NCBI GenBank assembly: GCA_009746045.1
Contig: RPFO01000130.1
Span: 1,812,125-1,876,124, forward strand
Source: Mesostigma viride
Lineage: Eukaryota > Streptophyta > Mesostigmatophyceae > Mesostigmatales > Mesostigmataceae
DNA length: 64,000 bases
Direction: 5' to 3'
Positions within the stretch are counted from its first letter, which is position 1, and each line of letters opens with the position of its first letter. Positions 14,648 to 56,126 of this stretch are shown here, in pieces. A program made the translations under genes and the position numbers. Below the pieces are notes generated by a model. The model did no database searches, was not told where the DNA came from, and saw nothing but the letters and a program-made list of their open reading frames with translations.

Positions 14648-15857
14648 TCAGATGTGCGGAGATACTATGCGATCCAGCCGGTCCACGACCTGTTTGTAGA
14701 GCTTGTGCCAAGGGGCAGCACCGAACAGATGTGGGTGACGTTGCAAAAAACATCGGACTTGACGGAGCATAATGGCTCGGTCATAGTCTTTGACCAATAA
14801 ACGCTGCAAGAGTTCAACAAGAGTCGTGATGAAATCAACACGATAAGAACAAAGACGGGAAAAACGATGTAACTGAGAAAGAACAACACCATATTTTGCT
14901 GTGTGGGAAAGGAGACTGTGAATATCGGGGTAACGAATAAAAGGAATTTGCTGGTATTTAGGATCCTTGCGCTTATCATAGACAGCCGTACGCCAGCCCT
15001 TCTTGTTATGGGTAATGTTAAGATCGAGGTAATTGCAATGAGTATCCTCCGACGTGAGCTTTAATGTGAGGGACGCTTGCGGGTAGATGCCAGGCAGACC
15101 AGCGGTGATATACAAATGGGTTGCGAAATCAGGGTTGTCGAAAGCGATGACATCATCAATGTATCGACATGTATGGATAAAACGCCTGATGAGAACATCA
15201 TCGTTTGAGGCAATGAGATTCTCCATGAATGCAAGCTCATAAGTGTATAGATAGAGGTTTGCAAGGAGCCCGGCACAGTTAGTGCCCATAGGGATGCCGA
15301 TAGCTTGTTGGTATACATTGCCCGCAAAACAGATGAAGGTGTTATCAACAAGATAAGAGATCCAATGGACAAGGTCAGCCTTCGTGATAATATAATTATA
15401 ACCATCCCGCACGATAGCACCTGCCGCGATCCCTGAGAGCCACGTTGCCGTGGGCTTGGTCTGAGAAACACGCACGTGCAGGTGGTTGCGCCCGTGAGGC
15501 CTCATACGTGCATACAGACGAGTAAGGAGGCTATCTAAACGGGCTTTCAAATCGTGCAAATCTAGTGTGGTATATAGAGTGGTGAAATCATAGGTGGCTA
15601 TGGGCATAGGTATACGTTTCTCTGCTGCTGTCTTAGAACGGCTAAGGGCGGCAAGGCGTAGGCGTACTTGGGCTGAGTCTATGACGATCCAACTACCAGC
15701 GCATTCATACCCGGCATTCGACAGCACCTCCACCCATAATGCATTGGCTTCGGGGAGAAGAGCATTCAAAGCATGGCAGATGAGTTTCGAGAGAGGCATC
15801 AGTGGGGCTGAATGCGACGCAGCAATGGTGCGCAAAGCAACAGGAGTTTTGTGCAGC
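14648..15857 (-). pseudogene. Penelope-like reverse transcriptase domain (3' half of split gene)
   Basis: Begins inside the conserved L-K-L-H-K-T-P motif, whose first residues lie across the insertion at 19028. Visible motifs: RTIAASHSAP, YDFTTLYTTL (motif A, catalytic Asp), GIPMGTNCAGLLANLYLY (motif B), RYIDDVIAFDNP (motif C with YIDD), then YLDLNI and a positively charged tail ending VSPHI. These are diagnostic for Penelope-like RT, a relative of telomerase. All catalytic Asp residues are present and the half-gene is otherwise open, so inactivation is due to the insertion alone. Confidence 0.9.
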
Positions 15858-18645: not shown

Positions 18646-19027
18646 TGCATGCCATGAAAATGCCCTTCTTTACCTTGAAAGTCCGTATATCTGCCTGCAT
18701 TTCGTCCGCCATGTCTACGTCCGCGCTCCCCCCTTTTTGCGCATCCTTCGTTTTCGTACGTTTTTGTCAATTTTTTTTACCGCCCAAACCTGCACGCACC
18801 AGGGTACCCTGTTGACTTTGACCAGGGTTTCCACCCTGATACGGTGGTCAAATACGGTCAGACAAGTGTCCTACGGATAGAGTGAATCTAGATCTTTTCG
18901 GTGGTCTAGTTGGTTCCCGCCAAAACCTTCCCGCCAAATCCCTACAGGGAGCACAAACTCATGCCGAATGTGAGGCATGAGAAAAACTCGCAGTCGAAAA
19001 TCGGCACGAGGACGGTTTAGGGGTTAA

Positions 19028-20873
19028 GAGTGAGATACAGATATGGGAACGTAGTGGTGGTGGCGCGTCGCTGCCGCTTAAGGAATGCCCGAGCAAAAAT
19101 GTTTTGGCTGTGCAGAAAAGCCCGATGAGCAGCAGTGATACTGGCGGTGGACTGTGCACGCTGAACATAGGTAGGGCTGGACGCCAACTCGTGTTGCAAA
19201 GTAGCAAGGTAGTGCTTCTTGCATATGAAAGCAAAGTTGTTGGCACTCTTGTCAACACACGTGATGATAAAGTCCTGCTTGAAGTGGTCAAGAAGTGCTT
19301 TATCTGTGGTGTTGAGCCAGGTGGTGCGGTGGACCTGCTGGAGACGGGAATCAAGCCTGGTGAGACGTGCATTGCATTCGTGAATGACGGCGCGAAACCA
19401 CGGTTCCATGGCAAGGGGAGCAAGCTGTAGGTCCGTGCACATGGCATTGCAGAATTTGCGCAGTGATGTGGAGAGCAGTGCATTCACCTCTTTGGCACAC
19501 GTGCGCTGGACCCACGGCCGAAACTTGGTGCCTTTGGCAAAAAGGTCTACAAGCGTGTGGCTCGGCAGGATGCTGAGGTCAGCGGTCATGACGTGCTGTG
19601 AGGTGGGATCAAGGTACTTGAAATACCGTTGTTGTTGGCAGGGGCAGGGCCCTGCCAAGATGGTGGCCAGCTCGGTGGGCGTTGTATCGCGGCTGACCTT
19701 CCCGTTGCTGAAAACCATTTGTCCCAAGGTGGGAGAGTAATGCCAGGCGGCAATGGGAGTGCCGAAAGTGTTGCGCACCACGAGCGGCATCGCAGCCTGC
19801 ACTTGCGGCAAATGCAGAATGTGTGGCAAACACAGCTCATCCATCGCAGCATGAATGAAAGGTGAGATCAGCAAACGGCGCGGACGCAGTGCATCTGCAT
19901 TCCCATTGACACGGTGCCGAATGATACGTGAGAGAAGGCCTCGCAGACTAGTGGCATGGGAGCGGGGGACTTGCAGATCAGCTGGGGAGCACGACCCGAC
20001 GGCAATGTGTAAGCTGGTAAGCTTCTTCAAGCTGCAGGCTTCGAGATAGGATGCATGAAAGTTGCCGCGTTGCATAAGCCGAGACATGTGACGTAAGCAG
20101 CGGAGACTGGTGGAGTAAAGGGAAGGATCGGTGGACACATGTGTGGAAGGTGGAGGGGCCGGGGTGACGCTGGGGGGATAGGGGCGATATGGGTGGAGAT
20201 TGTGCTTCAGACGCCAGGCACGGATGAACATAAGAGGGCGGGGACGGAGGGGAGGCGGGCGGCGGCGAGACCGAGCTTTGAAACTCTTGCCTTCAATGCA
20301 AAAACCGTGGGGCAGAAATGCATGTAACATTCGTTTCCAAAACGTTTCCCGATGCCCTGCGGCTTTGCGAAAAGCGGCGCCGGTAAAGGTGCCGGGGACA
20401 TGTTCCAAGGGGACGACTCGCCAATCCCACCACCCGTATTGGGCCATGGCGCCATGTAGGGGGGTGTCGTCGTTGGCGGCAGGGCGGCCAATATGAAGGC
20501 GGCGTGCCGCTCGGACATGTTCCTGAAAACGCGTCCAGGCATCCCGTTGCGTCTGGCCAACGTAGATACGCTGAGGGTACCTGCGGTTGTAAATGGCATA
20601 AATGACGCGACGGGTGCTTACGGGGTGTGGGCGAGTGGAGTTGGTAAGCGACAAATGCGTGCGCTGTAAGCGCCGGAGGCGACGTAGAGTATGGTCATCC
20701 TTGCAGTGATGGTTATGGCGCGTGTTGATGCGACAACGCTTCCGCCATGCCTGTGAGGAGATACGATAGGGGAACTGCCGAGAAATAGCAGTGTACTTCC
20801 GGTAATCAATGCCACTGGATTGCCGTATTCTGTGGAGGGTAAGAGCATGCCAGAAAGTCATAAGGTGTTTCAT
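19028..20873 (-). pseudogene. Penelope-like polyprotein N-terminal half with GIY-YIG endonuclease
   Basis: The ATG is at 20873-20871. Residues ~90-175 are a GIY-YIG nuclease: VIYAIYN, IYVGQT, an Arg in WTRFQEHVR, and HRETFW supplying the metal-binding Glu. Next come basic linkers, then CPC-QQQRYF, H-x-M-T-x-D-L and GTKFRP, the CxC region of this clade. Residues ~545-600 read DFIITCVDKSANNFAF, KKHYLATLQHEL and SPTYV, the conserved block before the RT fingers. The frame runs to the TTAA junction, where the insert adds L-N-P and a stop. The native protein would continue into the RT at 15857. Confidence 0.88.
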
Positions 20874-38208: not shown

Positions 38209-40846
38209 TGTCGCGTTTGCGTGCCATTATATCCTGGACTGATCATTACCGCTACTTGAATGTATCCACTATCAGCAGTAATCATGTGTGTGATATGCCA
38301 CCTAAAATCCTGTGAGATGCAGGTCACGGACATACTTGGCCGCCGACCTCATGACAGGCAATTCCGTAGCCAGCCAGGTGTAGAATAAAACCATGATGCT
38401 TTATATATTTGGAAAGCAACCAAACCATTCACATTTAATTTCAAAAGACATCGACAAGAATACAAGTGTTGTCTAGTCGTATAATGTCGTACTTGTGCGT
38501 CACTGTCCAAATAAGGCTAAGCGGTTCTTGATAACCTAGCAGGCCTCGGGTGACGCCACACTGCTCCGCTTGGCTTACGGCTGGCAGTGTACTTTAGCGC
38601 CCCCTATCCTGTCTACCTATCCCGCTTACCCCAGCTATGGCTCACTGGCCAACGACGACCGGGTTCCTTCCCGAGTCTCGCCCACAATACACACATCATC
38701 TTGACGAAACCAAACAGTTATCACTTCCGTCAACCAATCTCATGACAATTACTCATTGCAACCACTCTCGGGGGCTGCTCCGGATTGTTCAACTATTAAA
38801 CCCCTTGACGACAACACCAAGTTGTGAGGGAGAGTAACGAGCGAACAACGACCACCATGGCCGCTGCTGTGCTCCTAAATACCTCCAAAAATCCCGGCAT
38901 CCATGCGCTGCATGTCGCATTTGCCAGCAAGCCGCCTGACGTGCAGTTAGACTGCCAGCAAAATGCAAAGCAAGTCTGTTCGACAGCCACGTGCGAGCCA
39001 GCACACCGCACACTACGATCTGCGTATCTAGCTTTGTCAGATGGACTGAACATCATTCCGTCTGGACAATACAAAAGATTCATAACTGCCAAATGTCACG
39101 CACCGGAATATTGCGCAAGCCACCAAGGCTTTGCGCCCCAAAGTCTTGCGCCCGAACCTAAGTCAGGTCACCTAAGACTGTCACTCTAGAAATTCAGGCC
39201 TTTCCGGCGCGGCGCTCTACACCGGCCCAAGGAACAAAGCCTGCGGCCTATACTGAATCGGAACCAACCAAACGTCGGACGTAACGATTCCGATTACGGC
39301 AGTCGCGTAACTTCTTGAGTGCACGGACGTAAATGATCACGGACGTGACAGCTGTCGCGTTTGCGTGCCATTATATCCTGGACTGATCATTACCGCTACT
39401 TGAATGTATCCACTATCAGCAGTAATCATGTGTGTGATATGCCACCTCCCCCCCCACTCTTTAGCTCACAACAACTTGAGAGCAAAAAGTGAAAGAAAGG
39501 CATCTCACACAACCGAAGGAAGCCCAAAGAGGGCGTCATTCCAGGCAGCAGCAAAAAGGAAAAAAAAAATCCAGCTGCTCAAAGATGCTTTTCCAGGATC
39601 AGCAACAACCTTAACATGCATGCTTTTAAAGGCTTAGCAATAACCCCTTCAATGGCTTTTTACAGGGGAAAGCCTAACCTCTTCAGATGCTTTTGAAGGC
39701 TAAGCAATAACCTCTTCCTTGTGCTTCCCTGGGTGAAGCAGGAGGAACCCCAGGCTGGCCGAACTGAACCCGCCAAGGGTTGTTCGCTCGTTAAAATCCT
39801 GTGAGATGCAGGTCACGGACATACTTGGCCGCCGACCTCATGACAGGCAATTCCGTAGCCAGCCAGGTGTAGAATAAAACCATGATGCTTTATATATTTG
39901 GAAAGCAACCAAACCATTCACATTTAATTTCAAAAGACATCGACAAGAATACAAGTGTTGTCTAGTCGTATAATGTCGTACTTGTGCGTCACTGTCCAAA
40001 TAAGGCTAAGCGGTTCTTGATAACCTAGCAGGCCTCGGGTGACGCCACACTGCTCCGCTTGGCTTACGGCTGGCAGTGTCCTTTAGCGCCCCCTATCCTG
40101 TCTACCTATCCCGCTTACCCCAGCTATGGCTCACTGGCCAACGACGACCGGGTTCCTTCCCGAGTCTCGCCCACAATACACACATCATCTTGACGAAACC
40201 AAACAGTTATCACTTCCGTCAACCAATCTCATGACAATTACTCATTGCAACCACTCTCGGGGGCTGCTCCGGATTGTTCAACTATTAAACCCCTTGACGA
40301 CAACACCAAGTTGTGAGGGAGAGTAACGAGCGAACAACGACCACCATGGCCGGCGCTGCTGTGCTCCTAAATACCTCCAAAAATCCCGGCATCCATGCGC
40401 TGTCGCATTTGCCAGCAAGCCGCCTGACGTGCAGTTAGACTGCCAGCAAAATGCAAAGCAAGTCTATTCGACAGCCACGTGCGAGCCAGCACACCGCACA
40501 CTACGATCTGCGTATCTAGCTTTGTCAGATGGACTGAACATCATTCCGTCTGGACAATACAAAAGATTCATAACTGCCAAATGTCACGCACCGGAATATT
40601 GCGCAAGCCACCAAGGCTTTGCGCCCCAAAGTCTTGCGCCCGAACCTAAGTCAGGTCACCTAAGACTGTCACTCGAGAAATTCAGGCCTTTCCGGCGCGG
40701 CGCTCTACACCGGCCCAAGGAACAAAGCCTGCGGCCTAGCTAGCTATACTGAATCGGAACCAACCAAACGTCGGACGTAACGATTCCGATTACGGCAGTC
40801 GCGTAACTTCTTGAGTGCACGGACGTAAATGATCACGGACGTGACA
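38209..40846. mobile_element. Tandem dimer of a TGTC...GACA element with 4-bp target duplication TAGA
   Basis: TAGA flanks at 38205-38208 and 40847-40850. Unit 1 (38209-39350, 1142 bp) and unit 2 (39353-40846) are nearly identical apart from a 345-bp insertion in unit 2, and are joined by just GC. Each unit starts TGTCGCGTTTGCGTG and ends CACGGACGTGACA, an imperfect inverted pair that also fits the TG..CA of LTRs. An AATAAA signal lies near 38384. Two readings are possible: two LTRs joined as in a two-LTR circle with no interior, or a dimer of a short-TIR transposon. Unit 1 has an open frame at 38824-39189 (121 codons) that is broken in unit 2, so probably not coding. Confidence 0.75.
39447..39791. 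mobile_element. 345-bp insertion within unit 2 of the dimer
   Basis: Unit 1 reads GCCACCTAAAATCC where unit 2 has this insert, beginning TCCCCCCCCAC and ending TTCGCTCGT. It contains an A run (39558-39568) and two GCTTAGCAATAACC repeats. No coding or clear inverted ends; origin unknown. Confidence 0.65.
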
Positions 40847-41200: not shown

Positions 41201-41573
41201 CCGTTTTCCAGGCAATAATGCAGCAGCATAAATTCAGCTAAAAATAGACTCCTCGCGGCGCGGATTCCGTGGCGGAGTCGCTGTTCGCCGTTCGGCGCAG
41301 CGGTGGAGTGGAGCAGTCTCTCAGATGCACACGGTGGCATCCGGCATATATCTTGCGAGCTGGGCCGTTGCCAAGTTACGAAGCTAATATCTATGGCTTA
41401 ATCAGCAAGTTGGTGCCGGCATGGCTGCGGACGTTGGTGATTCAAGTTGGGATGGGGCGGAAATCGTATTCCGCCATATCGAGTTGAAAATTAAAAAGAT
41501 CAACATTTGCTGGGCAGGCCGCCCGGTGCCGATATATAGATTATTATTAGGAAATCTGGCCGGGGCGATAGCA

Positions 41574-41745
41574 GTTAACGAAACTGTGGCTGAACTGTGG
41601 TTCAGCCTGCACTGATTAATATCTACAGAGGAAGTAGTTATATTAATCAATAGGTTTACGTTGCTGGTTATGGCTACCAGCACAGAATGCACGAGGCACG
41701 TGAGAACCGTCGCCAAAGGTGCGAGGACACAGGTGCAGGGAAAGT
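41574..41745. repeat. 172-bp unit H, first copy (second at 43214-43385)
   Basis: GTTAAC-AAACTGTGGCTGAA to GGTGCAGGGAAAGT occurs at both places, nearly identical. Each copy is followed by the same LTR-like sequence, so a ~630-bp H+LTR block is tandemly duplicated. The first copy is separated from its LTR by the palindromic insert at 41746-42754. Confidence 0.85.
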
Positions 41746-42754
41746 AGTTAGGTTAAATAGTGCCGGAACCTTTTGCCGCCTGAGGCAAATCGGGCCGGAA
41801 CACTATTTTGCCCGGAATAACCACTTCCGAGCACCCAAGTTAATTCGGCCGAATCAACTTGGGTGCTCGGAAGTGGTTATTCCGGGCAAAATAGTGTTCC
41901 GGCCCGATTTGCCTCAGGCGGCAAAAGGTTCCGGCACTATTTAACCTAACTAAAACCTGGCCTCGTGGAGGGTGGGTTGAATATGAGACATCCGCCTAGG
42001 CCGCTGAGCACGCAAATGTAAATGCGCCGGAGCTGCCCGGATTCGAACCCCTGACCTCCAAGGTGCACCTCCAAGGTGACCTCCAAGGTGAACTAAAACC
42101 TGTGCACCTTGGAGGTCAGGGGTTCGAATCCGGGCAGCTCCGGCGCATTTACATTTGCGTGCTCAGCGGCCTAGGCGGATGTCTCATATTCAACCCACCC
42201 TCCACGAGGCCAGGTTTTAGTTAGGTTAAATAGTGCCGGAACCTTTTTCCGCCTGAGGCAAATCGGGCCGGAACACTATTTTGCCCGGAATAACCACTTC
42301 CGAGCACCCAAGTTAATTCGGCCGAATTAACTTGGGTGCTCGGAAGTGGTTATTCCGGGCAAAATAGTGTTCCGGCCCGATTTGCCTCAGGCGGCAAAAG
42401 GTTCCGGCACTATTTAACCTAACTAAAACCTGTGCACCTTGGAGGTCAGGGGTTCGAATCCGGGCAGCTCCGGCGCATTTACATTTGCGTGCTCAGCGGC
42501 CTAGGCGGATGTCTCATATTCAACCCACCCTCCACGAGGCCAGGTTTTAGTTAGGTTAAATAGTGCCGGAACCTTTTGCCGCCTGAGGCACATCGGGCCG
42601 GAACACTATTTTGCCCGGAATAACCACTTCCGAGCACCCAAGTTAATTCGGCCGAATTAACTTGGGTGCTCGGAAGTGGTTATTCCGGGCAAAATAGTGT
42701 TCCGGCCCGATTTGCCTCAGGCGGCAAAAGGTTCCGGCACTATTTAACCTAACT
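41746..42754. mobile_element. Cluster of three perfect 206-bp palindromes (foldback-type insertion), 5-bp target duplication AAAGT
   Basis: Palindromes at 41746-41951, 42219-42424 and 42549-42754 each run AGTTAGGTTAAATAG ... GGCCGAAT ... CTATTTAACCTAACT with ~103-bp arms. Between the first two is a 267-bp spacer that is itself an inverted repeat; between the second and third is a single 124-bp arm of the same spacer. AAAGT lies on both sides (41741-41745, 42755-42759), and the uninterrupted site is present at 43381-43385. The transcript could fold into very long hairpins. Confidence 0.9.
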
Positions 42755-43838
42755 AAAGTGGTGCTACCAAGTGGCAGCGTCCTGCTCGTTATATACTAAT
42801 TGTGACGCAGTCACATCCAGATGACTGATAGGACAGATCATCTCACAATATTGCTGTCCTTCACTCTGGACCAGCAGATCTCGACTCGTTATCCATAAAT
42901 AGTCACATCAGTGTCCTGTCGCACAAGTCCTGTCACTATTTGTTACGTCTAATCAATAGCATTGAATAGACCGCAGTGTCGGAGACTAAATGTCCTATCG
43001 TACACTGTGACAAGACGCCGTATGCCACGCGTCACTTGAAGAACCACCGTAGAATCACCGAATCCAAGTAGAATGTAGTAGAACAGTATCTTGCTCATAT
43101 CTCGAGCAATACTCATCAGAATGAACCCGTTTCTGGATTGTAGTAACCGGAAGTAGAATCTCTACAAGCCAAGTAGCTTAGTAGAATAATATTGCTTGCC
43201 AGGCAATATTAATGTTAACAAAACTGTGGCTGAACTGTGGTTCAGCCTGCACTGATTAATATCTACAGAGGAAGTAGTTATATTAATCAATAGGTTTACG
43301 TTGCTGGTTATGGCTACCAGCACAGAATGCACGAGGCACGTGAGAACCGTCGCCAAAGGTGCGAGGACACAGGTGCAGGGAAAGTGGTGCTACCAAGTGG
43401 CAGCGTCCTGCTCGTTATATACTAATTGTGACGCAGTCACATCCAGATGACTGATAGGACAGATCATCTCACAATATTGCTGTCCTTCACTCTGGACCAG
43501 CAGATCTCGACTCGTTATCCATAAATAGTCACATCAGTGTCCTGTCGCACAAGTCCTGTCACTATTTGTTACGTCTAATCAATAGCATTGAATAGACCGC
43601 AGTGTCGGAGACTAAATGTCCTGTCGTACACTGTGACAAGACGCCGTATGCCACGCGTCACTTGAAGAACCACCGTAGAATCACCGAATCCAAGTAGAAT
43701 GTAGTAGAACAGTATCTTGCTCATATCTCGAGCAATACTCATCAGAATGAACCCGTTTCTGGATTGTGGTAACCGGAAGTAGAATCTCTACAAGCCAAGT
43801 AGCTTAGTAGAATAATATTGCTTGCCAGGCAATATTAA
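42755..43838 (-). repeat. Two LTR-like copies (42755-43213 and 43381-43838) separated by unit H
   Basis: TGGTGCTACCAAGTGGCAGC to GCCAGGCAATATTAA, about 455 bp, almost identical. The right copy adjoins the 3' end of Copia A. A purine tract AAAAGAGAAGAAAGGG (minus strand) precedes it, the usual position of a polypurine tract. A third, incomplete copy is at 55298-55660, on the 5' side of Copia A. The exact LTR ends are uncertain because the purine tract itself appears in the third copy. Confidence 0.7.
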
Positions 43839-44617
43839 CTCCAGCCCTTTCTTCTCTTTTAGAGCTTGGACATAACAGCCATATTAACTCCAGCCCTTTC
43901 TTTCTTTTAGAGCTGTTAGGCTTGGCAACACATATATAGAAACAACATGCATAGCACTTGATATCCCTCCCAGCTCTCTGTAGTCTCTGCTCGGGATTAA
44001 TCAAGCACCAGATCACAACACATCTCAGCCATGACGAATTACAATGAATTCCCTATCCACTGGAAGTAGAAAGCCAAGTGTTTGGAATAGCAGCTTGTGG
44101 CTAACCAGAATAATGACCAAAATGGAATCATCACCATAATGGCTCCTGATTGGAACCCCACAAGTTACCCACAAGACCTTATCAGGTAGACATTGATAGT
44201 TATCAGAACTGGCGCCCACCATGGACTGAGAAATAGCACATCACAAAATATATTAAGCACATGACAAACTACCTTCGACTCTGTCTGGGACAAAACTAGG
44301 GGGACCTGTCGCCACCTCACCAGCAAGGTTGATGGGCCAGCCAATCCGGGAAAATCCGCCTAAGCAGCCCCAGGGAATCGAACCCTGCCCTATAAAATCC
44401 CTTTGGTTGAGACAAACCTCAAACTGAGGACAAACCCCCAACCAACATCATGCTCCATGACTGAGCATTACATAGAATACAGTATTATACACATATGTAC
44501 ACAGAGCATTACTGCCCTCAGAGCATCACAGCTCTCAGCATAACAGAGCCCAGCTCAATGTTAGCTCTTCTCACCCAACAGTCACCAAGCTCAAAGCTCC
44601 AACTGGAATTGCTCAAC

Positions 44618-45619
44618 TCACACAGAGGAGCTCATCAGCTTGTAAAGAAGCTTATATTGCTCAGCAGACTTGTGAGGCAACTTAGTCAAGGCATCAGCAG
44701 GATTCTCAGAACCTGGAAGATGTTGAATATCCACCAGACCTGCCAACTCCTTCAACAGGAGATAATCCAGATCTCTGCTTCTGGCCAACTGCTTGTGCAC
44801 AAACTGGACCATACCCATGTTATCTGAAAGGATCAAGGTTTCCAGCTGAAGAGTATGAGGAGTCACTGAAGCCATAGCTAGCAACAGCTCCTTGATGTAC
44901 AAACTAGACTGAATCCCTTCACAAATGGCTCTGCACTCAGAGACATCTGAACTCACAGCAACCCTTCTTTGAAGACGACTGTACCAGGCCACAAGACTAG
45001 GCCTATGTTGCTGAAGCACAAACAAGCCAGCTGACCTGCCTCTGACCTTAGAAACTTGCCTGCTATCCATGGAGCTATCAACATAGATATCCAAGGAAAA
45101 TGGCAAAGACAAATCAATCCCAGCTAAAGTAATACCAGGAGACTTGTTAACATGTGCAATAATCTGGGAAGGCTCCTCCAGAATTAGCACATCATCAGGG
45201 GATCTGCTATGGACCATCATGTCAGGCCCACAAATGCTGCCATACCAGGCCAACTTGCCTTTCAGCTCAGGTGCAATGGATGACGTCATGACCTCTGGAA
45301 CAGATTGAAGAATGGTACTCTTGTAGTCATTGCCCGCCTGCAGCTTAATCAGCCACTGACTCCCCTCCTGAACCAATGTAGCCTGCATTCCACAGAACGT
45401 GACAGCCTCTCCAGGCTTCTGCCACAATTCTTTTCCCAAAGGAAATGCATAATTAATGATGGGCACAAACTGACTCAACCACTTAGTGGGAGCAATCAAG
45501 TGCAAGTCATCACCATGCAGGCTAGCATACACAGGTAAATCATGCCACCTACCCAGCAATAAACATGGGTCCACAGATGACACCTTCAACCCACAGTGTT
45601 TAGTCAAGAAGTCTTCCAA
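44618..45619 (-). pseudogene. Copia A RT C-terminal part and RNase H
   Basis: The open frame of 333 codons starts in the RT palm: SVDPCLL, then YASLHGDDLHLIAP, which occupies the place of the usual YVDD motif C. The connection has LKGKLAWYGSICGPD. The Copia-type RNase H shows VDSSMDS (Asp), SSDVSECRAICEG (Glu), LILSDNMG (Asp) and HLPGSENPADALTKL. The two Asp of motif C remain; the upstream residues are His-Gly. The same HGDD is in Copia B. Confidence 0.85.
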
Positions 45620-45645
45620 GGTGAGCCTCCAAATGATGGGACTGG

Positions 45646-46227
45646 TGTTAAAATCGAGTTCGAATTTTATTAAATGATAATTTTACGGTAATCAGGTTAC
45701 AAACTCAGAGCCAAGCCCCCAGCTTAATTTACCAGCGCAACCATAGCCATTGCCAGCATAGCAGCAACAACCGTTGGACCGCCGCAACACAATGCTGGCT
45801 TTTGGATCATCATCGTCTGTCAGGCGGCTAGGCTAGCCTGCAGCGCTAGGCACCGACGCAAGCCTGGGAACGCATCTCCGTTACACATCTCCGTTACAAC
45901 ACACCAGCCGAGTACCGACCAATCGACACACACCAGTATCTCGCCACTTGTCACGCCAGCCGGCAGTACCCAGAATCCTAGTCCGCACCTCAGTACCGGA
46001 CCAGTGCCGCACAGCCAAAGTCTAGGGCGTAACTCACGAGGCATAACGCACACAGCGTAACTTAAATCGTTGTGGATCACACAAGCCAAAATTCAGCCGA
46101 ACCTCAAAACGGCTAAGTCCCAATGCGCGAATTAACCCGAACGCCTCGAACCACAAAATGGCTAAGTACCGGCACACAATCATTAATTATTTCCATGTGA
46201 CTGCGAGCTGAAACCTATAATATAACA
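45646..46227 (-). repeat. Copia B 3' LTR
   Basis: 582 bp, TGTTAAAATCGAG ... ATAATATAACA on the + strand (TGTT...AACA ends on both strands). Preceded on the element side by a purine-rich GGGAAAAAGCGGCTGG (minus strand), a likely polypurine tract. ACTGG at 45641-45645 is the left target duplication. Confidence 0.93.
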
Positions 46228-46706
46228 CCAGCCGCTTTTTCCCGAGCAGTCACACATCCCACCAATCATTATCTCACTCAGCTCGAGAGTAACCGACAGA
46301 CACCTCACCAGGAAGCACTAACACAGGACGCTATGTACTAGGGGAGTCCGCACCCCTCACTTGGCGCCCATTCACGCCCTGGTAGTACAACCAGCATCTG
46401 TCAGTAAGTCAAGTAAGCAAGCGAGAATACAAGACTGATCAAAAGACCACCCTCGGCTCCAACACCAACCACACCCTGAACCCACGGACTTTCACACATC
46501 ACCAACCACAGTCCCCGCCTCCGATCAGGTCCTCAACCCAGGACCATCCCATCAGGTACATCCCCACCAAGATAGAGTTATCCAACCGTACTGGGTCATC
46601 CTGAGATGGGCTCGATCCAGGGGTCATTCCCAGCCCACATGTAATGCGTCCCAACGCCTGCCAGCCTGAAATTCTCATGCCACATGGTCCATTGCCCAGA
46701 TCTACA

Positions 46707-49700
46707 TCAAACCTCCAGCAGTCCTTGCAGATCCCCGAGAGAGCCCCCCATGACCATCCGCAGGAGGCGATACTGGTCGCGCGCCCCAGCAAACAGCTTG
46801 GTCAGCGCATCAGCCGGGTTGAGCTTCCCAGGTAGATGAAGCACGCTCACTGCGTATGACAGTTCCTTGAGTAGTAGGAAATCCAGGTCGCGCGTCCTGG
46901 ACAGGCTGTTGAGAATGAAACTCACAAGCGGCTGACTGTCGGTATGCACAGTCGTGGTCAGTACCAAACGAGCATCCAGCCACTTGCCCATCCAGCGCAG
47001 AAATTGCTCTAGATACAGGGACGCCTTGATGCACTCACACACCCCGCGACACTCATTGGTATCCGATCCAACTGCCACCCTGCGGCACAACCTAGAGTAC
47101 CACCCACAGAGCGAACCATTGCCCTTGGGGTTGGAGAGCACAAACAAGCCGCCCATGCGAGCTCTCGTCTTGGTGAGCTCCCTGCCCTCGCCAGACGTGT
47201 CAGCAAAGCAATGCAACACAATCGGCTGAGAAAGAGACAAACCAGAAAGTACTACACCCTGGCTCTCAGCAACATACTGCTTGATCACAGACGGAGAAAC
47301 GAGAGCCAACACCTCATCCACAGTCCTACTTAACACCAGCAGGTCAGGCCCACACACCGCTGCCATCCAGCCGAGCTTGCCACGCAATCTGCTCCACAAA
47401 CCCTTGGCGCACAACTCCTCCACATCGCGCATGAGCTCCTCCCTGTACTTGTCAGGAATACCCAAGTGCATCCGGTGCTTACCCGACACCACCCGCAGGG
47501 TTTGCACCACCCCGCAAAACACCCGTGGCGTCTGCGGCCCCAATTGCTGCAACTCACCCACTGGGAACCGCCGCCCAATGTCAGCATAGAATGCATGCAA
47601 GGCTGACCGCGAAGCAATGACACGCAAGTCATCCCCATGCAGTTGTACAAACATAGGACCAGACGGCATCCGCGCCACGAACAACGATGGGTCGTAGGGA
47701 GATACCTCAAACTCTGCGATCTCACCCAACGCACGCATGAGGGTTATCCTCCAAACAATCGACGCGCTCTGCAGACCCTCTATAGCCTTGCACAGACCCA
47801 TGAACTCAGACGTGACCACCTCCTTCCAGAACGGCGGCGTCTGCACCACTAGAGGCGGAGTACCCTCCCACACCTCTTGCGCCACTTCCTCGCTAGAGTT
47901 AGGGAATGCGCGCTTGACATCAATGGACGCACACGCGTAGTCCTTGCCTTCGTCCAGAAAGCTAAGAAAAATCATGCTAACCATCCTGAACGTGTCCCAT
48001 GCCATCCCTGGGGTGTAGAGCTCCTCCTTGGCCAGCGGGCTAGTACCTGCAAACTCTTGTGATACCGGCCTCACGTAGCAGATCTCCACACCTGCCTTCA
48101 CCTTGTGGGACAGCACCATCTTCAGCGGAAGCACCCTAGCCCCCTTCGGCACCGTGTCAAGCGGTTCATACACCCCGTAGCCCTGCCACTCCTCAAGTGC
48201 CTTACGGAATGCACACCACCAGCTCGAGAACCCACTAGGCGTTGACATCTGCAGTACAAGCTCAGGGAATGTGATCGGGGAATGTGCGGCTATGTCCCTC
48301 TCAGTGATTCCTAGGCTGTTGGGATGCAGTAATGCAGGCATAACCAGGTCAGCAGCTGGCGGGAGATCAGCGCCCCACGCTACACCCTCCGTACCCGACA
48401 GTGCTGCTAGCCTAGCCACTGTGCTGCAAATGCGACTGAGAGGCTCGACTGACTTGTAAGACTGTAGCTCTATCGACCCGTGACCTACTCGGGTTAGCAA
48501 TGAGCTCTGAATCCGCACATCAGGATGGTCCAGGAAAGGAAGTCCCAAAATGGCGGGTCCATCATACCCCTCGAGCACGCAAAACGGCGTCTCCTCCCCA
48601 AGATCGTCAGCATTACCTCACCCCGCACCGGCATCCTCACTAACCCGGAGAAGTCCTCCACATACCTCCACCTGGACGCAGTGCACGGCAGATGCCTGGC
48701 TACTCCCTCACCCAGCAAGCACACCACCGCGTCAGTGTCCACTTCCAATCGACAACTACCCAGCCCGTCCGAATACCAGTTGGCAAGCTTAGAGACCGCA
48801 GCCACCAGCTCACCTGGCTCACCTCTCTCCTCGACAGCCTCGCTGTCGTCCATGGGGCTATCGCCCTCACTCGGCAATATAGGCCCCGCGTCGGCCAACC
48901 CGCCAACGCCACCAGCCTGCTGCCCCGCACCTGCGGTCAATGCCCCAGCATCGCCGGCCCGTGCAACCCCACCTTCGGCTGGCTCACCCGCCTCACCGGA
49001 CCGTGGTACCATCCCACCTTCGGCCACCCGCTCCTTGCCGGCCCGCGAGATGTTGCCCCCCAACTGCCGCTGCTCGCCCACCGTGGCAGCGCGTCGAGCT
49101 TCCTGCAGGCGCTCCACTAGGCGGGCTAGTACCGCGGCGCGCTGCTTCTCCTGGTCGTCAACGGCTGGGGCAACCCCCGAACCGCCCGACCCCACGCTAG
49201 CGGGACCGCCCTTGGAAGGTGGCAACCCAGCTTCCGGCGAAAGGGAGCGAGTAGGTTGATCAGGCCCACCCCCCTCCCTCACCCCCCCTGCAGCCCCGGG
49301 ATCCCCCGCCTCACCCCCAGCCTGCACACTGGGGTCCCTAACACCTTCCTCAGCGGGTGGGTCTGGCGGCCCCAGCCCGTCATAGTAGGGGCGCAGGTGT
49401 TTCCACGCTAGCAGCTTGTCGTAGCAACTGTCCTCTAGCGCTACCGAAGCAAGCATGTGATCAGGATCGATCTCCTTGACCACACCGGGACCTCTCCATA
49501 GGCCCCGTTTTCCATGACTGCCCTCCGCGTAGGCCCAGACCCTGGCGTTCACGCACGGCACATAAACCTGTCCACGTCGCAGGTCCATCTTTACCATGCG
49601 CACGTAACGATCGCTCAAATAATCCCTGTACTCTTCCACAGCCTCAGGTGACAACAAGCCCATCTCCACTCCCTTAGGCGTGACTGCCACCTGCCCACCC

Positions 49701-50593
49701 AACACCTTGACCATTACACGGTTGTTGAGACATTGCTCTATCTCATTGCAGATCACCAGCCTCTCACGATACGAGCCTGTTCTCATCTTCTCCATGCATG
49801 CCATCACCTGCTTCGATGTCTGTATGTGGCGCTCGACAAGACCCTGGTGCTCGTGGTCAGCTACCCCAGCAAGTTCTATCTTCCCCACACCCGGCTCACC
49901 CACACAGCACTCAAACTGCTGATCGCACTCCAACACAGATGCCACACCAAACTTGGACCTGAGGAGACGCAATGCATCACACAAGTGCTCCTTCAGCTTG
50001 CGCTCAAGTGGCACCATGACCTTGTACCTGGAGAACCTGCCCACTGCAAGCACGTAGTCTCTGTCGTCATACATGAATACATCACACTGCACCACACCTC
50101 GCTCAAACTCTGGCCTACGTGCATGGAACTTGTGCGGTTTAGGTGCCCGCTCCTGACATTTGCGACACCTTAACCACACCTGCTTGCACATATCCACTAA
50201 GTCTGTGAACCCTAGCATGGCTGCCCACTCCTCACCCGCATGCCCATGCCCTAGTGCTTTGTGTAACCGTGTGGCCATGTTAAGTACACTGAGCGACCCG
50301 GCTGCCTCACCGCACGCCGCACCATTCACATGTGCTGAACTAGGGTCTGGTGAGGTACCACCTACCGGCGGCCCGCCCGCTGCGGTGTGCCCCCCTGCAG
50401 CGCCTCCAACCCACTCATTCCCCATCCCCTGAGACACTGCCCTTCCCCCTTCTGCAGCTGTCCCATGCTCCAGGTGGCCCCCCTTCTCCCTAGTGCCTGC
50501 TAGCACCGCCACCTGAGCACCCAGGTAGGGTGAGTACACCTGGGGGGTCGAGCTGGCCTCCCCTGCACCAGCCCGCATGCCAACCTCACCTAG
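46707..50593 (-). CDS. pol: Copia B Pol: integrase, protease-like domain, RT, RNase H
   Basis: Pol reads on from the gag TGA (50596-50594). Domains in order: HKALGH and CRKC (HHCC finger, ~residues 110-150 of pol); integrase core with Asp in VVQCDVFMYDD, Asp in LECDQQFECC and Glu in HQGLVERHI; Pro/Gly-rich linker; retropepsin-like CRLEVDTDAVVCLLG ... DFSGLVRMPV ... PAILGLPFLD; RT with SIDVKRAF (motif A) and FVQLHGDDLRVIA (motif C); RNase H with SDTNECRGVCE, HTDSQPL and NPADALTKL. A one-base shift in GGGG near 48580 divides the frame inside the protease-like domain, so this copy may be dead or use frameshifting. No protease lies before integrase, unlike standard Copia. Confidence 0.88.
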
Positions 50594-50596
50594 TCA
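50588..50596 (-). promoter_or_regulatory. Leaky stop context TGA CTA G between gag and pol
   Basis: Gag ends in TGA at 50596-50594, followed by CTAGGT. The pol frame is the same frame, with its first ATG 18 nt after the stop. UGA-CUAG is an established high-readthrough context in animal and viral genes. Readthrough here would make a Gag-Pol fusion at low level; reinitiation at the nearby ATG is the alternative. Confidence 0.7.
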
Positions 50597-50804
50597 CCTA
50601 CGGCCACCGCCCTGGGCCGCTGGGCACAGGTGAGTGTCCCTCGCAAAGTGCCCTGGCTGCCCACACCTGTGACACACCGCTGGTGCTTGCGAGTTGGCGT
50701 TGCTGCGTGCCTGGAGAGTGTCCTTGTGCCTGTGATAGCAATTGGCTGCCATGTGTCCCGACTTCCCACACACAAAGCATGCCCCATGCACCGCCGGCTG
50801 TGCC

Positions 50805-50837
<33 letters not shown>

Positions 50838-51811
50838 GAGCGCTGTTGCTGCTGATACGGCGACGCAGCTGCAGGCTGTTGTGCATGCTGCTGCTGCTGC
50901 GGGTATGGCTGCTGTCTACCTTGCTGCCATCGCTTCCCAGGCATGCGCTGCGCTCGGCTGAAGCTGCCCTTATTGCCCCTACGCATCGGGCCCCCATTGC
51001 CCCGAGGCCCGCTGGGCCCCGCGCCGCTAGAGCCACCACCGCCCGCAATGGCGGCCACCTTGCCCCCATCCGGCGCTTTAGCAGCACCACCTTGGGCACC
51101 ACCAGAAGAAGGAATGGAATTCACAGCGACAGGCGGTAATGCAGGGGAAATCAGACCCAGCTCATTGAGCTTACCTTGGGCCCGCAGTTGGGCCACCATG
51201 TCCCTCTCCTCACCCTCGACAATGCCCGTGATAACCTCAATCGCCTTATTGAGATCATCCTCGGCTTTCTCACGCTTGAGAGCTGCCATGGCATTCTGGA
51301 AATTAAGGTCCTTGGCATTGCGAACATAACGGTCCACCACCGCCAGTTCCACCACCGGAATGCCATCCTTTACACTCTCGTTTCTCGCATTTCTCAAAGC
51401 GAGAAGGTCGAGTGTGTAGGGACGCTTCGGCACCCAATTATAAATGCCAACATGACGAGACTTGGCAGATGCTTTCGATTCAAGAAGTGCTGCACGCAAC
51501 CTACCTCCAATTGCAGCGCCCTCGATTTTCTCGTCACGGCAGGAGCGCAGGCAATTTACTAGAATGGCGTTGTCGGCTCTAAACATTCCGGCATCCCGGA
51601 ATAGCCCATACAGATCCTCGGTTTTATCTGCATGATCCGCCACAAACGCCTCAAACCTGTCACAGAAATCCTCTACCAATGTCACTGCCGCATCAAGAGG
51701 AATTGTCCCGACTCGTGTTTTGCACAGCTCTATCAAATTCTTCTCATTTCTTAAATCCTTCCACCCAGTACGCTTTCTCGAATCCGTCTCTTCTTGTTCT
51801 TGATCCGACAT
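50594..51811 (-). CDS. gag: Copia B Gag with poly-Q stretch and two zinc knuckles
   Basis: 405 residues starting MSDQEQEETDSRKR at 51811, about 40 nt after the 5' LTR. An alpha-helical capsid-like region spans ~residues 15-200 (DLYGLFRDAGMF, NCLRSCRDEKIEG), followed by Gly/Ala and Gln-rich linkers encoded by a CTG/CAG repeat at 50811-50900, then CFVCGKSGHMAANC and CHRCGQPGHFARDTHLC. The first is a C-x2-C-x4-H-x4-C retroviral knuckle; in the second the last spacing is longer. Gag packages element RNA into cytoplasmic particles. The frame is intact. Confidence 0.9.
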
Positions 51812-51851
51812 TGCTACGTTTTTCCTTATTAATTAACCCCGTCCTAGTACA

Positions 51852-52434
51852 TGTTAAAATCGAGTTCGAATTTTATTAAATGATAATTTTACGGTAATCA
51901 GGTTACAAACTCAGAGCCAAGCCCCCAGCTTAATTTACCAGCGCAACCATAGCCATTGCCAGCATAGCAGCAACAACCGTTGGACCGCCGCAACACAATG
52001 CTGGCTTTTGGATCATCATCGTCTGTCAGGCGGCTAGGCTAGCCTGCAGCGCTAGGCACCGACGCAAGCCTGGGAACGCATCTCCGTTACACATCTCCGT
52101 TACAACACACCAGCCGAGTACCGACCAATCGACACACACCAGTATCTCGCCACTTGTCACGCCAGCCGGCAGTACCCAGAATCCTAGTCCGCACCTCAGT
52201 ACCGGACCAGTGCCGCACAGCCAAAGTCTAGGGCGTAACTCACGAGGCATAACGCACACAGCGTAACTTAAATCGTTGTGGATCACACAAGCCAAAATTC
52301 AGCCGAACCTCAAAACGGCTAAGTCCCAATTCGCTGAATTAACCCGAACGCCTCGAACCACAAAATGGCTAAGTACCGGCACACAATCATTAATTATTTC
52401 CATGTGACTGCGAGCTGAAACCTATAATATAACA
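51852..52434 (-). repeat. Copia B 5' LTR
   Basis: 583 bp, same ends as the 3' LTR. The internal region begins after it with TGTACTAGGACGGGG (minus strand), the expected primer-binding position; the tRNA was not identified. ACTGG at 52435-52439 is the right target duplication. Confidence 0.93.
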
Positions 52435-52573
52435 ACTGGACCTGAGACCTTCTAGACCCTTCAGAATCAGCAGGTAGCTATAGACTGGAGCTCTGCCTGC
52501 CAGGCTACAGGAACTGGCACATGAAATGGAGTTTCACAATGGCACACCTGCTGAGCCACACTGGGATCACCCT

Positions 52574-53926
52574 TCAGAAATGCTCTCTTGAAATAGATCT
52601 AGCAGAACAGTCTGAAGACATATCAGCACCCTGGCTCAGCATACCGACATACAGGCACAATAAAATACGCCATGTATCATGTAGCATCCCAGGTGTATAC
52701 AACTCCTCGCCCAGAAGATCCCCAGTACCACGGTATTCATTAAGAACTGGACGCACATGGGGAACAGACACCCCCTCCACCTCCTTCCGCTTGATGACGA
52801 ATCTGAGCTTCAACCGTGTACTGTATGGAGGAACTTCATTCACAGGCTGACAGCAGTCAAACTGCAACCACTCCTCTAGGGCCTTGGCAAATGCTAGCCT
52901 CCAGGCCTCAAACATCAGAGGAGAACTCATTTCCTGGTCAAGCTGATCATAGCTAAGAGGAGAATGAGCAGCCAGTGATCTCTTAGTAATACCAATACTG
53001 CTAGGATGGAGAGCAGCTGGCATCACAAGACTGGAAGCCACAGGAATCTGATCCTCAGGCCACTGCACATTCCTGATCGCTTTCACAGAGAAAAAATTAA
53101 GATTCAGGGCCCTGAAGTTAGTCAGTGGAATGCTACCCCAACCCTTACGAATAAGGCTATGAGATACAACCACAACTCCAGGGGTGCAAAGAAAATTCTG
53201 ACCCAAAATGATAGGGCCATCGTAATCTTCTAGCACTAGTAGGAAGGAAACATCTACACCCATAAATGGCAAGATGATTTCTCCTACCACTTTCATATGA
53301 ACCCTGCCGCTAAAGTCAGACACCCAGGAACAGCTAGACTCGCCAATCTGCCGCTGCCCTGTATGCTGAGACCCCATGATTGAGACCTCTGCATTGGTAT
53401 CTACTTCTAGTGCAGTGCACTCGGACTCCCCCAACTGGCTGAGCTTGGACACCCGAGGCTTTTGCTTGGCTTTTTGCATAGCCAGCACCACATCTTTCAG
53501 GCCCACACCTCTATGCTTAGTGAGGCTAGAGGGGACCACATCTGCCTGCTCTAAATCTGGAAAGTTAACCGGTCCAGGGGTCTGGCCAGGACTTACCCGG
53601 GGATTACTTCCAGCCGGAACGTGATGATCAGGGATGACGTCATGACCAACTGGCAAGGTTGTCACATCAGGAGATACTGCCTCTGCTTCAGCACCCCTTA
53701 GACGTACATATGACCACGACAGACAGTGCACATTCTTGGGAGGATCCTCCATCTTCACCCAGCACTTGTGCCCAGCTAGTTCCACCCTGGTCACTACTCC
53801 AGGGTGCCAGCTACCACGCTTGCCTGCAAGCTTGGGCTCTTTCCACACAATTACCCTCTGGCCAACAACAGGTTTCAGAACACTCCAGCCCTTGTCTTTC
53901 TGCCTCAACTTGGCAAACTTGAACAT
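52574..53926 (-). pseudogene. Copia A integrase tail, protease-like domain and start of RT
   Basis: 450 codons: a C-terminal integrase region (GQRVIVWKEPKL ... GVVTRVEL), a linker, then retropepsin-like ALEVDTNAEVSIMG, DFSGRVHMKVVGEI, and DYDGPIILGQNFL. The DTN occupies the place of DTG or DSG, and IILG is the second psi-loop motif. RT fingers follow (LKLRFVIKRKEV, VRPVLNEYRGTG, EELYTPGM). The frame stops near motif A (GADMSSDC) through a frameshift. This shows the same integrase-protease-RT order as Copia B. Confidence 0.82.
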
Positions 53927-53954
53927 AAGGCTATCTTTCCAGGCTTGCTCAACC

Positions 53955-54540
53955 TCAGTAGGGAGCTCCCGAAGACTGATGCAATGATAATGGAGTCACA
54001 GGGACCTCTCCAACATACATGGGTGCCCTGACATTCAATCTGTCCTCAACTGACCTTAACCAGGCCGTCTTGATAATAGCTGGAACCAATCTTGGAATCT
54101 TCTTCTCCGTCAGCAGAATAGTCTTGAGTTCTCTGATTGTCCTCTCCACCACGCCTTGACTGCCATGGGACTCCCTGTGTACAACAAATAACTCAGGGAG
54201 GTCTTCATGCCCCATGCAGCACTCAAATTCTAAATCACACTGCAGCTGGATCACTGGTTTCATTCTGGATCTGATAGCCTGGAGCCCAGTCACCAAACAT
54301 GGCTTAGATTTGTCTTGCAACAGCTCCAGCACCTTGTACTTCTTGGTGTATCTGTCAACACCCACCAACAAAATCAGTTTCCTGATTTCTTGGATATCAC
54401 ATATTTGTACATATCCAGGCTGCAACACAGGTTGTCTGACATGAGACTTCTTAGGCTTGAGAGCAACCAGCCTACAGGAACAAGCCTCAGCAACCTGCTT
54501 TACTGCTAAGGTGATGTGCTTTGATCAGCACTTTATCACT
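53955..54540 (-). pseudogene. Copia A integrase core
   Basis: Contains ICDIQEIRK (first Asp), VGVDRYTKKYKV, VIQLQCDLEFECCMG (second Asp) and SHGSQGVVERTIREL (Glu), the D-D-E triad of retroviral-type integrases. CD-x-x-FECC-x-G is shared with Copia B. The upstream HHCC finger is degraded (ACSCRLVALKPKK). A frame change near 53950 separates it from the following region. Confidence 0.8.
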
Positions 54541-55297
54541 TACAACCATGCTCCCCATTAATTGCATCATTCAGGCCATCATCAGCCTCATCCTCCTCCT
54601 CTAAAGGAGCCTCCTGCCCTACTAAGGCAGGACTTCCACGCTCCAACATTGAAGGAGTACGCAAACTACCTCCAAGAGCCATGTGGGAACGTTGTTGCCT
54701 TGTGGTAACTGCTTTCACCATGGTGACGTGGGAAGACCCAGTCACTACCCCATTGTGTTCTCCCTCCATGGATGTACCCTCAACCTGACAGTGCAGGGAG
54801 CAAATTAACTTCATCCAGAGTTATGGGGGGGTCACTCTTAGCCCCCTCCCTGGCGGACCCTAGCAAGCCCAGGGAAGGCAGAATCCGTCAGGTTGGGTTA
54901 AATTAATATACCCACCTCGGTTCACTTGCCATTGAATGCCAAAGAGGGCAATATGACCCTGTTTGCATGGCAGAAATAACATGTTACCCTGCGCTGCACC
55001 GCAGATCCAGGTGCTCCCCACTGGGCACCTACCCTGTTGAAGTGATTATCAAATAAATCACAACCTTGCTTGTAAGTGCGCCTTCACGCCAGGCTGCTCT
55101 TCATGCAACAAGGTATCAACAGTAACTCCACTTGTTGTTGCTCATAGCATTAAATCGTTCGCGACACTCGCGGGCGACTGAGCACTCTCGATGAATCAAC
55201 TGCACACTGGTGAAGCCTTCGCTCCCAACACGCTCAGCAGCTGCATTGAAGACCTTCATTGTCGATGGCGACAAATTTTATTGATTAGACGTAACAA
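54541..55297 (-). pseudogene. Copia A gag remnant and 5' leader
   Basis: No long frame survives. Around 54960-54990 the minus strand reads CYFCH, then after a one-base shift QGHIA, a broken zinc knuckle. Poly-Ser/Glu acidic coding at 54560-54620 may be the gag-integrase linker. The leader joins the LTR remnant at 55298. Confidence 0.5.
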
Positions 55298-55660
55298 ATA
55301 GTCACATCAGTGTCCTGTCGCACAAGTCCTGTCACTATTTGTTACGTCTAATCAATAGCATTGAATAGACCGCAGTGTCGGAGACTAATAAATGTCCTAT
55401 CGTACACTGTGACAAGACGCCGTATGCCACGCGTCACTTGAAGAACCACCGTAGAATCACCGAATCCAAGTAGAATGTAGTAGAACAGTATCTTGCTCAT
55501 ATCTCGAGCAATACTCATCAGAATGAACCCGTTTCTGGATTGTAGTAACCGGAAGTAGAATCTCTACAAGCCAAGTAGCTTAGTAGAATAATATTGCTTG
55601 CCAGGCAATATTAACTCCAGCCCTTTCTTCTCTTTTAGAGCTTGGACGTAACAGCCACAT
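55265..55660 (-). repeat. Copia A 5' LTR remnant with a terminal foldback
   Basis: Matches the LTR-like copies at 42755-43838 from AAATAGTCACATCAGTG onward. About 130 bp of the expected end is missing and replaced by an inverted copy of TATTGATTAGACGTAAC, so 55280-55350 can form a hairpin with the same sequence 40 bp away. Confidence 0.7.
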
Positions 55661-56126
55661 TAACTATAGCTGCAGAAAATTAAAAACAGCCTGTTCGTCA
55701 TCAAAAGACGAGTCTAATGCAATCAACCCGACGAAATTTCATGGCCGGAGCAAAACGCTATGAGCATTCTCGGAGCTACCATTTTGCCGCCATTTTGAGC
55801 AACAGCACTGCAATCGGAGATGAAGATGGAATATCTCGCATCAGCCCCCATCTTGCTGTCATGCACATGGAGAGCAATAATGTAAGTTCGTGAACATGTA
55901 CTGAAAGTCTTAGGCATGCCACGGAGTACCAAAAGGCAATTATAGGCATGGTAGAGGACGTCCAGGAGCTCGCCGTGGCTGCCAAGCTTCAGTGGACAGC
56001 TAAGAAGATTGAGGCCCTGGCCTTACAACAGGTGCCCAACAATCTGCTGCATAGACGGCGCCACCATCACCGCTCAGTCCGCTGGGCATGGTGAGGGGGA
56101 CCCGACCTCCCCGTGCACACCTGGAT
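55661..56126. other. No gene recognised
   Basis: Short open frames only (for example 55723-55932, minus). No repeat seen elsewhere in the window. Confidence 0.4.

Follow-up and report, generated by a model that had tools for sequence, protein, structure and literature searches.

Domain order and its known variants

The order of the pol domains is one of the chief criteria for telling Copia from Gypsy among retrotransposons with long terminal repeats (LTRs). In Copia elements (Ty1/Copia, Pseudoviridae) the protease (PR) is followed by integrase (IN), reverse transcriptase (RT) and RNase H (RH), and in Gypsy elements (Ty3/Gypsy, Metaviridae) the order is PR-RT-RH-IN. By the account given in PMC6317226, the large plant survey of Neumann et al. 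removed every element of unexpected order as likely mispredicted. LTR elements make up 27.9% of the genome of the alga Mesostigma viride, and the word 'Copia' is missing from the main text of the paper reporting this (PMC6947507). Here we describe two LTR retrotransposons, elements A and B, in a 64,000-nucleotide stretch of the M. viride genome (the window; GenBank assembly GCA_009746045.1, contig RPFO01000130.1, positions 1,812,125 to 1,876,124, forward strand). In both, a retropepsin-like domain lies between integrase and RT, and the same order is found in long open frames of their relatives.

We consider it probable that A and B belong to a distinct Copia-related LTR lineage of M. viride with the order gag-IN-PR-RT-RH and with the expression, maturation and history proposed below. 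A first-pass annotation of the window had read both elements as integrase, retropepsin-like domain, RT and RNase H, and the frames, motifs, order and places that we obtained agree with it. Its suggestion of an undescribed Copia lineage is likewise supported. The lineage is apparently undescribed, though provisionally so: no earlier description of the IN-PR-RT-RH order was found in the open-access literature, subscription papers, Repbase and Dfam lying outside the search.

The IN-PR-RT-RH order in six families

The order IN-PR-RT-RH is present in all seven representative sequences, which stand for six families. The representatives from the Mesostigma genome are A1 (L044) and A2 (L047), counted as one family, A3 (L050), B (L052), C (L051) and E (L056 together with L044:7718-9499); D is a protein from ENA (P0007). 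A1 and A2 are 96% identical over pol, and thus form one family, yet only 73% identical within the PR segment. The divergence of this segment between L044 and L047 has the look of a patch of exchange or of fast change in the protease. L048 and L049, both A3, were left out of the profiles, and L045 and L046 were used for LTRs and gag only.

Six of the representatives (A1, A2, A3, B, C and D) are single pol frames of 1,196–1,307 aa, in which the integrase motifs (zinc-binding HxxxGH, D, D and [E]R) are followed in turn by D-T-[N/D]-A, ILG, D[F/V]KRAF, HGDD and ADA[L/V]TK. Family E is made up of collinear pieces that do not all lie in the same frame, a single piece spanning PR through RNase H; the succession is the same, with D-T-Q-A and LLG in the protease and an Asp replacing the third integrase acid. 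In every case the second protease motif lies 63 residues after the PR Asp. Since order and spacing recur in seven sequences of six families, they are not a matter of chance. The canonical Copia order, as stated in the first-pass annotation, was seen in all four control elements scanned from the same genome (Pol_BBD, gag_pre-integrs, rve, SH3_retrovirus, RVT_2); a fifth element was fetched (L013), and its pol frame is incomplete in the fetched stretch. From the order shared by A and B, the annotation had concluded that it was not one rearrangement. This does not follow: two related elements with the same order point to a single ancestral event inherited by both and not to independent events.

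How widespread are such elements in the genome? We searched the assembly (439.9 Mb, 2,243 contigs), scoring the best candidates, and the resulting counts are lower bounds. A 450-aa protein of element A gave at least 94 matches, spanning the end of integrase to the start of RT, of which 33 lie in stop-free frames of at least 1,190 aa; close relatives of the decayed element A carry an open pol of 1,197 aa. The integrase frame of element B gave at least 71 rows. Eight of these are B-type rows in stop-free frames of 1,288–1,297 aa, and a further row is a relative of 1,320 aa belonging to family C.

The ENA protein P0007, of 1,214 aa, shows the same order. Searched against the protein database, the RT frame of B had one match, the Mesostigma gene model P0001, which is 84% identical to this frame; P0009 is also a Mesostigma gene model of the lineage. 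A five-row PR-RT-RH alignment had four matches, namely P0007, P0008 and P0009 of the lineage and P0010, a canonical Copia protein (E = 3.7e-4). The IN-PR frame of B found no match in the protein database, perhaps since low-complexity words filled the candidate list, and there was no relative among the five IMG/VR stretches that fitted a pattern in a search with the B RT frame.

Identity of the protease-like domain

The seven PR sequences have in common D, T and A of the first motif, D-F-x-G, V-x-G, Y, L-G, F, P and G-x-G-x-I-x-L. The domain of family E is 32–36% identical to those of the other six and was found by their profile at 83.8 bits; E is therefore a member of the lineage. In retropepsins, a second motif, (hydrophobic)-LG, lies about 60 residues after the active-site Asp, and all seven sequences have this motif at the 63-residue distance given above. 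When a seven-row PR profile was compared with 177,635 distinct PDB sequences, the sole match at E ≤ 10 was human DDI1 (3s8i), aligned over most of the PR domain with both motifs in register. Against Copia proteases the profile scored 22.4, which none of 200 column shuffles reached (maximum 18.7). This match is weak (P 0.005–0.009, versus P 0.6–0.72 for Copia IN or RT), and in the second half of the alignment ILG is not paired with the Copia LLS. Taken together, these profile comparisons suggest that the domain is very likely a retropepsin. That it also cuts is an expectation we hold with less assurance, though we lean towards it.

Several results weigh against this interpretation. The position of the active-site Gly is taken by N in A1, A2, A3, C and D, by D in B and by Q in E, so that D[ST]G is absent from all seven domains and catalysis appears uncertain. 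The DDI1 match (E = 0.53) is not significant alone, and a five-row PR profile, with D and E left out, matched two aminotransferases in PDB instead (E 1.4–1.5). No match among PDB sequences was obtained with the full A2 pol, the five-row PR-RT-RH alignment or the E frame. In Pfam searches with five PR members, no family reached E 0.001, and DUF6898 (three of five, best E 0.0025) and DUF3558 (one of five, 0.016) outscored gag-asp_proteas (two of five, best 0.16); an NCBIfam search of the PR domain gave no match. The first-pass annotation had proposed checking these segments for a retropepsin fold. Structure prediction was of no use here (pLDDT 37.4, with an HIV protease at rank 25, E 4.6), and the fold is proposed from sequence, with DDI1 as the best PDB match.

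The missing Gly admits another explanation, that the domain is a retropepsin relic which no longer cuts and serves as a structural or dimerization module, Gag-Pol being processed by the host or left unprocessed. In keeping with this, D-T-N/D/Q takes the place of D-T-G in all seven sequences, and a scan for D[ST]G found none in the pol of A1, A2, A3, B and C, nor in four gags (A1, A2, A3, B). However, Asp, Thr and Ala are invariant despite the low identity of the domain to that of E, as expected of a site in use. Moreover, canonical-order elements also vary at the Gly position: D-S-A-A occurs in two of the four Mesostigma Copia elements (L010, L011) and in P0010, all of which have their protease at the canonical position. 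We therefore regard a relic as rather unlikely.

The region upstream of integrase was likewise examined. A Copia-PR hidden Markov model (HMM) scored -0.2 bits at most on all seven upstream regions, versus 45.5–83.6 bits on five of five leave-out controls. The regions comprised gag and early pol (A2, A3, B), the frame L056:1704-2948 (E) or early pol only (A1, C, D). HMM and D[ST]G scans thus bear out the earlier claim that gag and early pol of element B hold no other protease, and no protease upstream of integrase came to light in intact relatives within the regions tested. The gag/linker of family E (L056:703-2948, minus strand) holds one D-T-G-A without a recognizable surrounding protease. 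As a candidate second protease it was set aside: frame 1704-2948, with the N-terminal gag outside, reaches -0.7 bits under the Copia-PR HMM and -1.7 bits under that of the lineage.

The first reading considered for the origin of the domain was relocation of Copia's own protease. According to PMC2642776, Copia proteases usually have ILS and almost all others of clan AA have ILG. The second motif is ILG/LLG in all seven lineage sequences versus LLS/ILS in five of five controls (the four canonical Mesostigma Copia elements, of which L009 and L012 are near-identical, and P0010). Because of this tail, and of D-T-[N/D/Q]-A, the lineage protease is probably not a Copia protease merely relocated; the weak profile match to Copia proteases also disfavours relocation. 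With an ILG-type and not a Copia ILS-type protease, the likeliest history would be that the Copia-position protease was lost and a different, ILG-type protease came to lie next to RT. An alternative is an early-branching lineage with integrase in a third position.

It is improbable that the domain is an unrelated β-rich module whose likeness in motifs is accidental. The lack of a confident structure and database matches that are weak and rank DUF6898 above gag-asp_proteas would suit such a module, but DDI1 is the sole PDB match and is in register at both motifs, no shuffle reached the Copia-PR score, the second motif keeps a constant spacing and no other protease was found. Finally, there is practically no chance that the order is an artefact, produced in two decayed copies by nesting, misassembly or the mixing of frames. 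The position of B within A and the broken frames of both window copies might suggest this, but it is refuted by the stop-free A-type and B-type frames of the genome search and by the ENA protein with the same order.

Integrase and reverse transcriptase

Pfam gave no rve or SH3_retrovirus match to the lineage integrase at E ≤ 10 (A2, A3, B, C, E) or E ≤ 1 (window frames). A weak Agenet match (E 0.004–0.08, below the cut-off) covers the integrase C-terminal domain of A-type proteins. An AlphaFold2 model of the B integrase, built from three rows (pLDDT 58.8), shows helices at the N-terminus, an RNase-H-like core and a barrel at the C-terminus. Of its 298 PDB matches at E ≤ 0.001, each of the 50 listed is a retroviral integrase (best E 4.1e-10), and most of the named ones among 39 BFVD matches at E ≤ 0.001 are retroviral pol. 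TM-scores of the PDB matches are low (0.19–0.25 by query), and the domain arrangement is therefore poorly modelled. Profile comparison with Copia integrase gave P 0.26. Judging from the model, the lineage integrase appears to resemble retroviral integrases; by profile, it does not seem recognizable as Copia's.

The RT-RNase H region of six sequences (without E) aligned with that of Copia over its whole length (hhalign, P 3.3e-20, 474 columns), and RVT_2 was above the cut-off in B, C and P0001. Less favourably, RVT_2 was below it in A2 (E 0.076) and was not reported in A3 or E. On these alignments the lineage RT-RNase H is taken as Copia-type, on a long branch. In an unrooted maximum-likelihood tree of 12 sequences, a branch with support 100 and a length of 2.30 substitutions per site lies between the seven of the lineage and five Copia sequences. 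A tree against Copia lineages had been proposed in the first-pass annotation. The deep split is what such a tree now indicates, with references limited to Copia sequences of the same genome and one outside Copia protein; it is a separation from this Copia set, not the placement of a sister group.

LTR ends and signs of recent activity

Most LTR elements typically end in TG..CA, according to PMC12440569. A-type elements have AG..CT ends (AGTTAA...TTAACT), seen in A1 (C14), A2 (L046), A3 (C1) and the window element A, whose outer LTR ends are AGTTAACG and TTAACT. Such ends are unusual, although other exceptions are known. Copies ending in AG..CT were noted in L045/L053, L046, L050/L055 and window element A (41573 and 55665). 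The target site duplications (TSDs) are of 5 bp: ACAGA (A1), TCAGG (A2), CTTAC (A3), these three read by eye from the flanks, and ATAGC (window A). LTR pairs are 99.68–100% identical in L045, L046, L047 and L050, which are the A-type stretches, of seven fetched, with an LTR pair read. Long open frames, near-identical copies, near-identical LTR pairs and TSDs suggest that the lineage has been recently active; on the other side, the LTR remnants of window element A are only 98.1% identical.

Element B nested in element A

Element B is inserted within element A, and the RT of A is split as a result: the coding region of A is in two parts, 52574-54524 and 44618-45619, with B between them (Table 1). 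Paired LTRs, TSD, polypurine tract, gag and pol, the hallmarks of LTR retrotransposons, are present. The LTR pair of B is 99.66% identical. A and B are about 40% identical across PR, RT and RNase H, and their integrase cores are 32% identical. At its 3' end, element A seems to have two tandem LTRs, one of them with a palindromic fold-back insertion of about 1 kb.

Table 1. Positions of elements A and B and of their parts within the window.
Feature	Position	Strand	Remarks
Element A, whole, decayed copy	41573-55665	-	TSD ATAGC
TSD ATAGC, left of element A	41568..41572	.	
Element A outer 3' LTR copy, with palindromic insertion of ~1 kb (41745-42757)	41573..43212	-	Division into two tandem LTRs inferred from repeat table
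Element A second (tandem) 3' LTR copy, adjoining polypurine tract	43213..43889	-	
Element A end of RT and RNase H	44618..45619	-	41% identical to B
Element A frame: integrase C-terminal domain, PR-like domain, RT start	52574..53926	-	
Element A PR-like domain	53132..53449 (about)	-	D-T-N-A ... ILG
Element A integrase core	53955..54524	-	D, D, E
Element A 5' LTR remnant	55296..55665	-	
TSD ATAGC, right of element A	55666..55670	.	
Element B, whole	45646-52434	-	TSD ACTGG, LTRs 582/583 bp
TSD ACTGG, left of element B	45641..45645	.	
Element B 3' LTR	45646..46227	-	TG..CA
Element B frame: PR-like second part, RT, RNase H	46707..48578	-	RVT_2 E 1.8e-8, about 47562-48155
Element B PR-like domain	48450..48811 (about)	-	D-T-D-A ... 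ILG; frame broken within in window copy
Element B pol frame: integrase (zinc-binding N-terminus, D-D-E core, SH3-like C-terminus), linker, PR-like first part	48494..50578	-	Modelled integrase segment 49340-50320
In-frame UGA, then CUAG, between element B gag and pol	50594..50596	-	
Element B gag	50594..51811	-	Two CCHC zinc knuckles
Element B 5' LTR	51852..52434	-	
TSD ACTGG, right of element B	52435..52439	.	

Elsewhere in the window, direct repeats of about 1 kb, 98% identical, lie at 38303-39350 and 39792-40846. Further reverse-transcriptase-like frames at 9873-11451, 14648-15835 and 19017-20873 look by eye like non-LTR and possibly Penelope/GIY-YIG-like ones.

Proposed expression and maturation

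The pol frame of window element B breaks inside the PR-coding region and is continuous in other genome copies. The break is common to 19 of the 71 B-query rows, 18 of them at 100% identity over 684–694 aa. The broken version has thus spread although its RT is out of frame with integrase, and was therefore probably moved by proteins of continuous-frame relatives. A programmed frameshift as a general mechanism at this site was rejected, given the eight B-type rows in one stop-free frame; with 19 of 71 rows broken, the break may still be tolerated.

Between gag and pol, a single frame runs across a UGA in B, L047 (A2) and L050 (A3). The stop context in B is UGACUAG, which is prone to read-through. 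What counts against a shared mechanism is that gag and pol are not in one frame across the UGA in three further copies: gag continues into a different frame in L045 (A1) and L046 (A2), and its frame stops earlier in L044 (A1). Read-through is accordingly plausible for some copies, not lineage-wide.

From these features we propose the following course. After translating gag, a small fraction of ribosomes would go on into pol, by reading through the UGA in B, L047 and L050 or by frameshifting where the frames differ. Two Gag-Pol molecules would then pair in the particle, their PR-like domains forming a retropepsin dimer through the Asp of D-T-[N/D/Q]-A. The protease would free itself from between integrase and RT and separate Gag, integrase and RT-RNase H. 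The RNA would be copied, and integrase would insert the cDNA with 5-bp duplications.

Comparison with known systems

Elements of this different order exist: five of the families fetched come from one genome, and one outside protein has the order as well. The motifs given here can be used in further searches. The elements make testable how retroelement modules are re-joined, whether particles mature normally with the protease after integrase and whether a retropepsin works when its active-site Gly is gone. A bolder proposal, possible but distinctly tentative, is that a basal streptophyte alga harbours a superfamily-level lineage, with integrase in a third position, ahead of the protease, and a non-Copia, ILG-type protease working with D-T-N/D/Q. 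If true, the position of integrase relative to PR-RT was set at least three times among LTR elements, and the retropepsin Gly is dispensable.

As exceptions to TG..CA ends, the A-type elements have company. Troyka LTR retrotransposons, for which superfamily rank has been proposed, are another such exception, but they are described as Gypsy-related animal elements with CG..CG ends and a 3-bp TSD (PMC12440569). TARE1 is, by the description in PMC3701649, a tomato Copia-like element whose LTRs start with TA. The retropepsin domain of DDI1, the best and only PDB match to the seven-row PR profile, differs in belonging to a cellular protein and in having D-S-G-A.

With Ty3/Gypsy and the retroviruses, compared here by described traits, the lineage shares a protease directly before RT, of ILG type, and an SH3-like C-terminus of integrase. 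None of the lineage sequences has the Gypsy order: their integrase lies before RT-RNase H, not after it, and RT-RNase H appears to be Copia-type. The likeness to Ty1/Copia extends to RT-RNase H homologous from end to end, an integrase that precedes RT, LTRs, a 5-bp TSD and a CCHC gag. In contrast to Copia, the lineage has its protease after integrase and not before it, ILG/LLG with D-T-[N/D/Q]-A instead of ILS/LLS, an integrase that does not appear recognizable as Copia's by profile, HGDD in RT where P0010 has a YVDD-type motif and, in A-type elements, LTRs ending in AG..CT.

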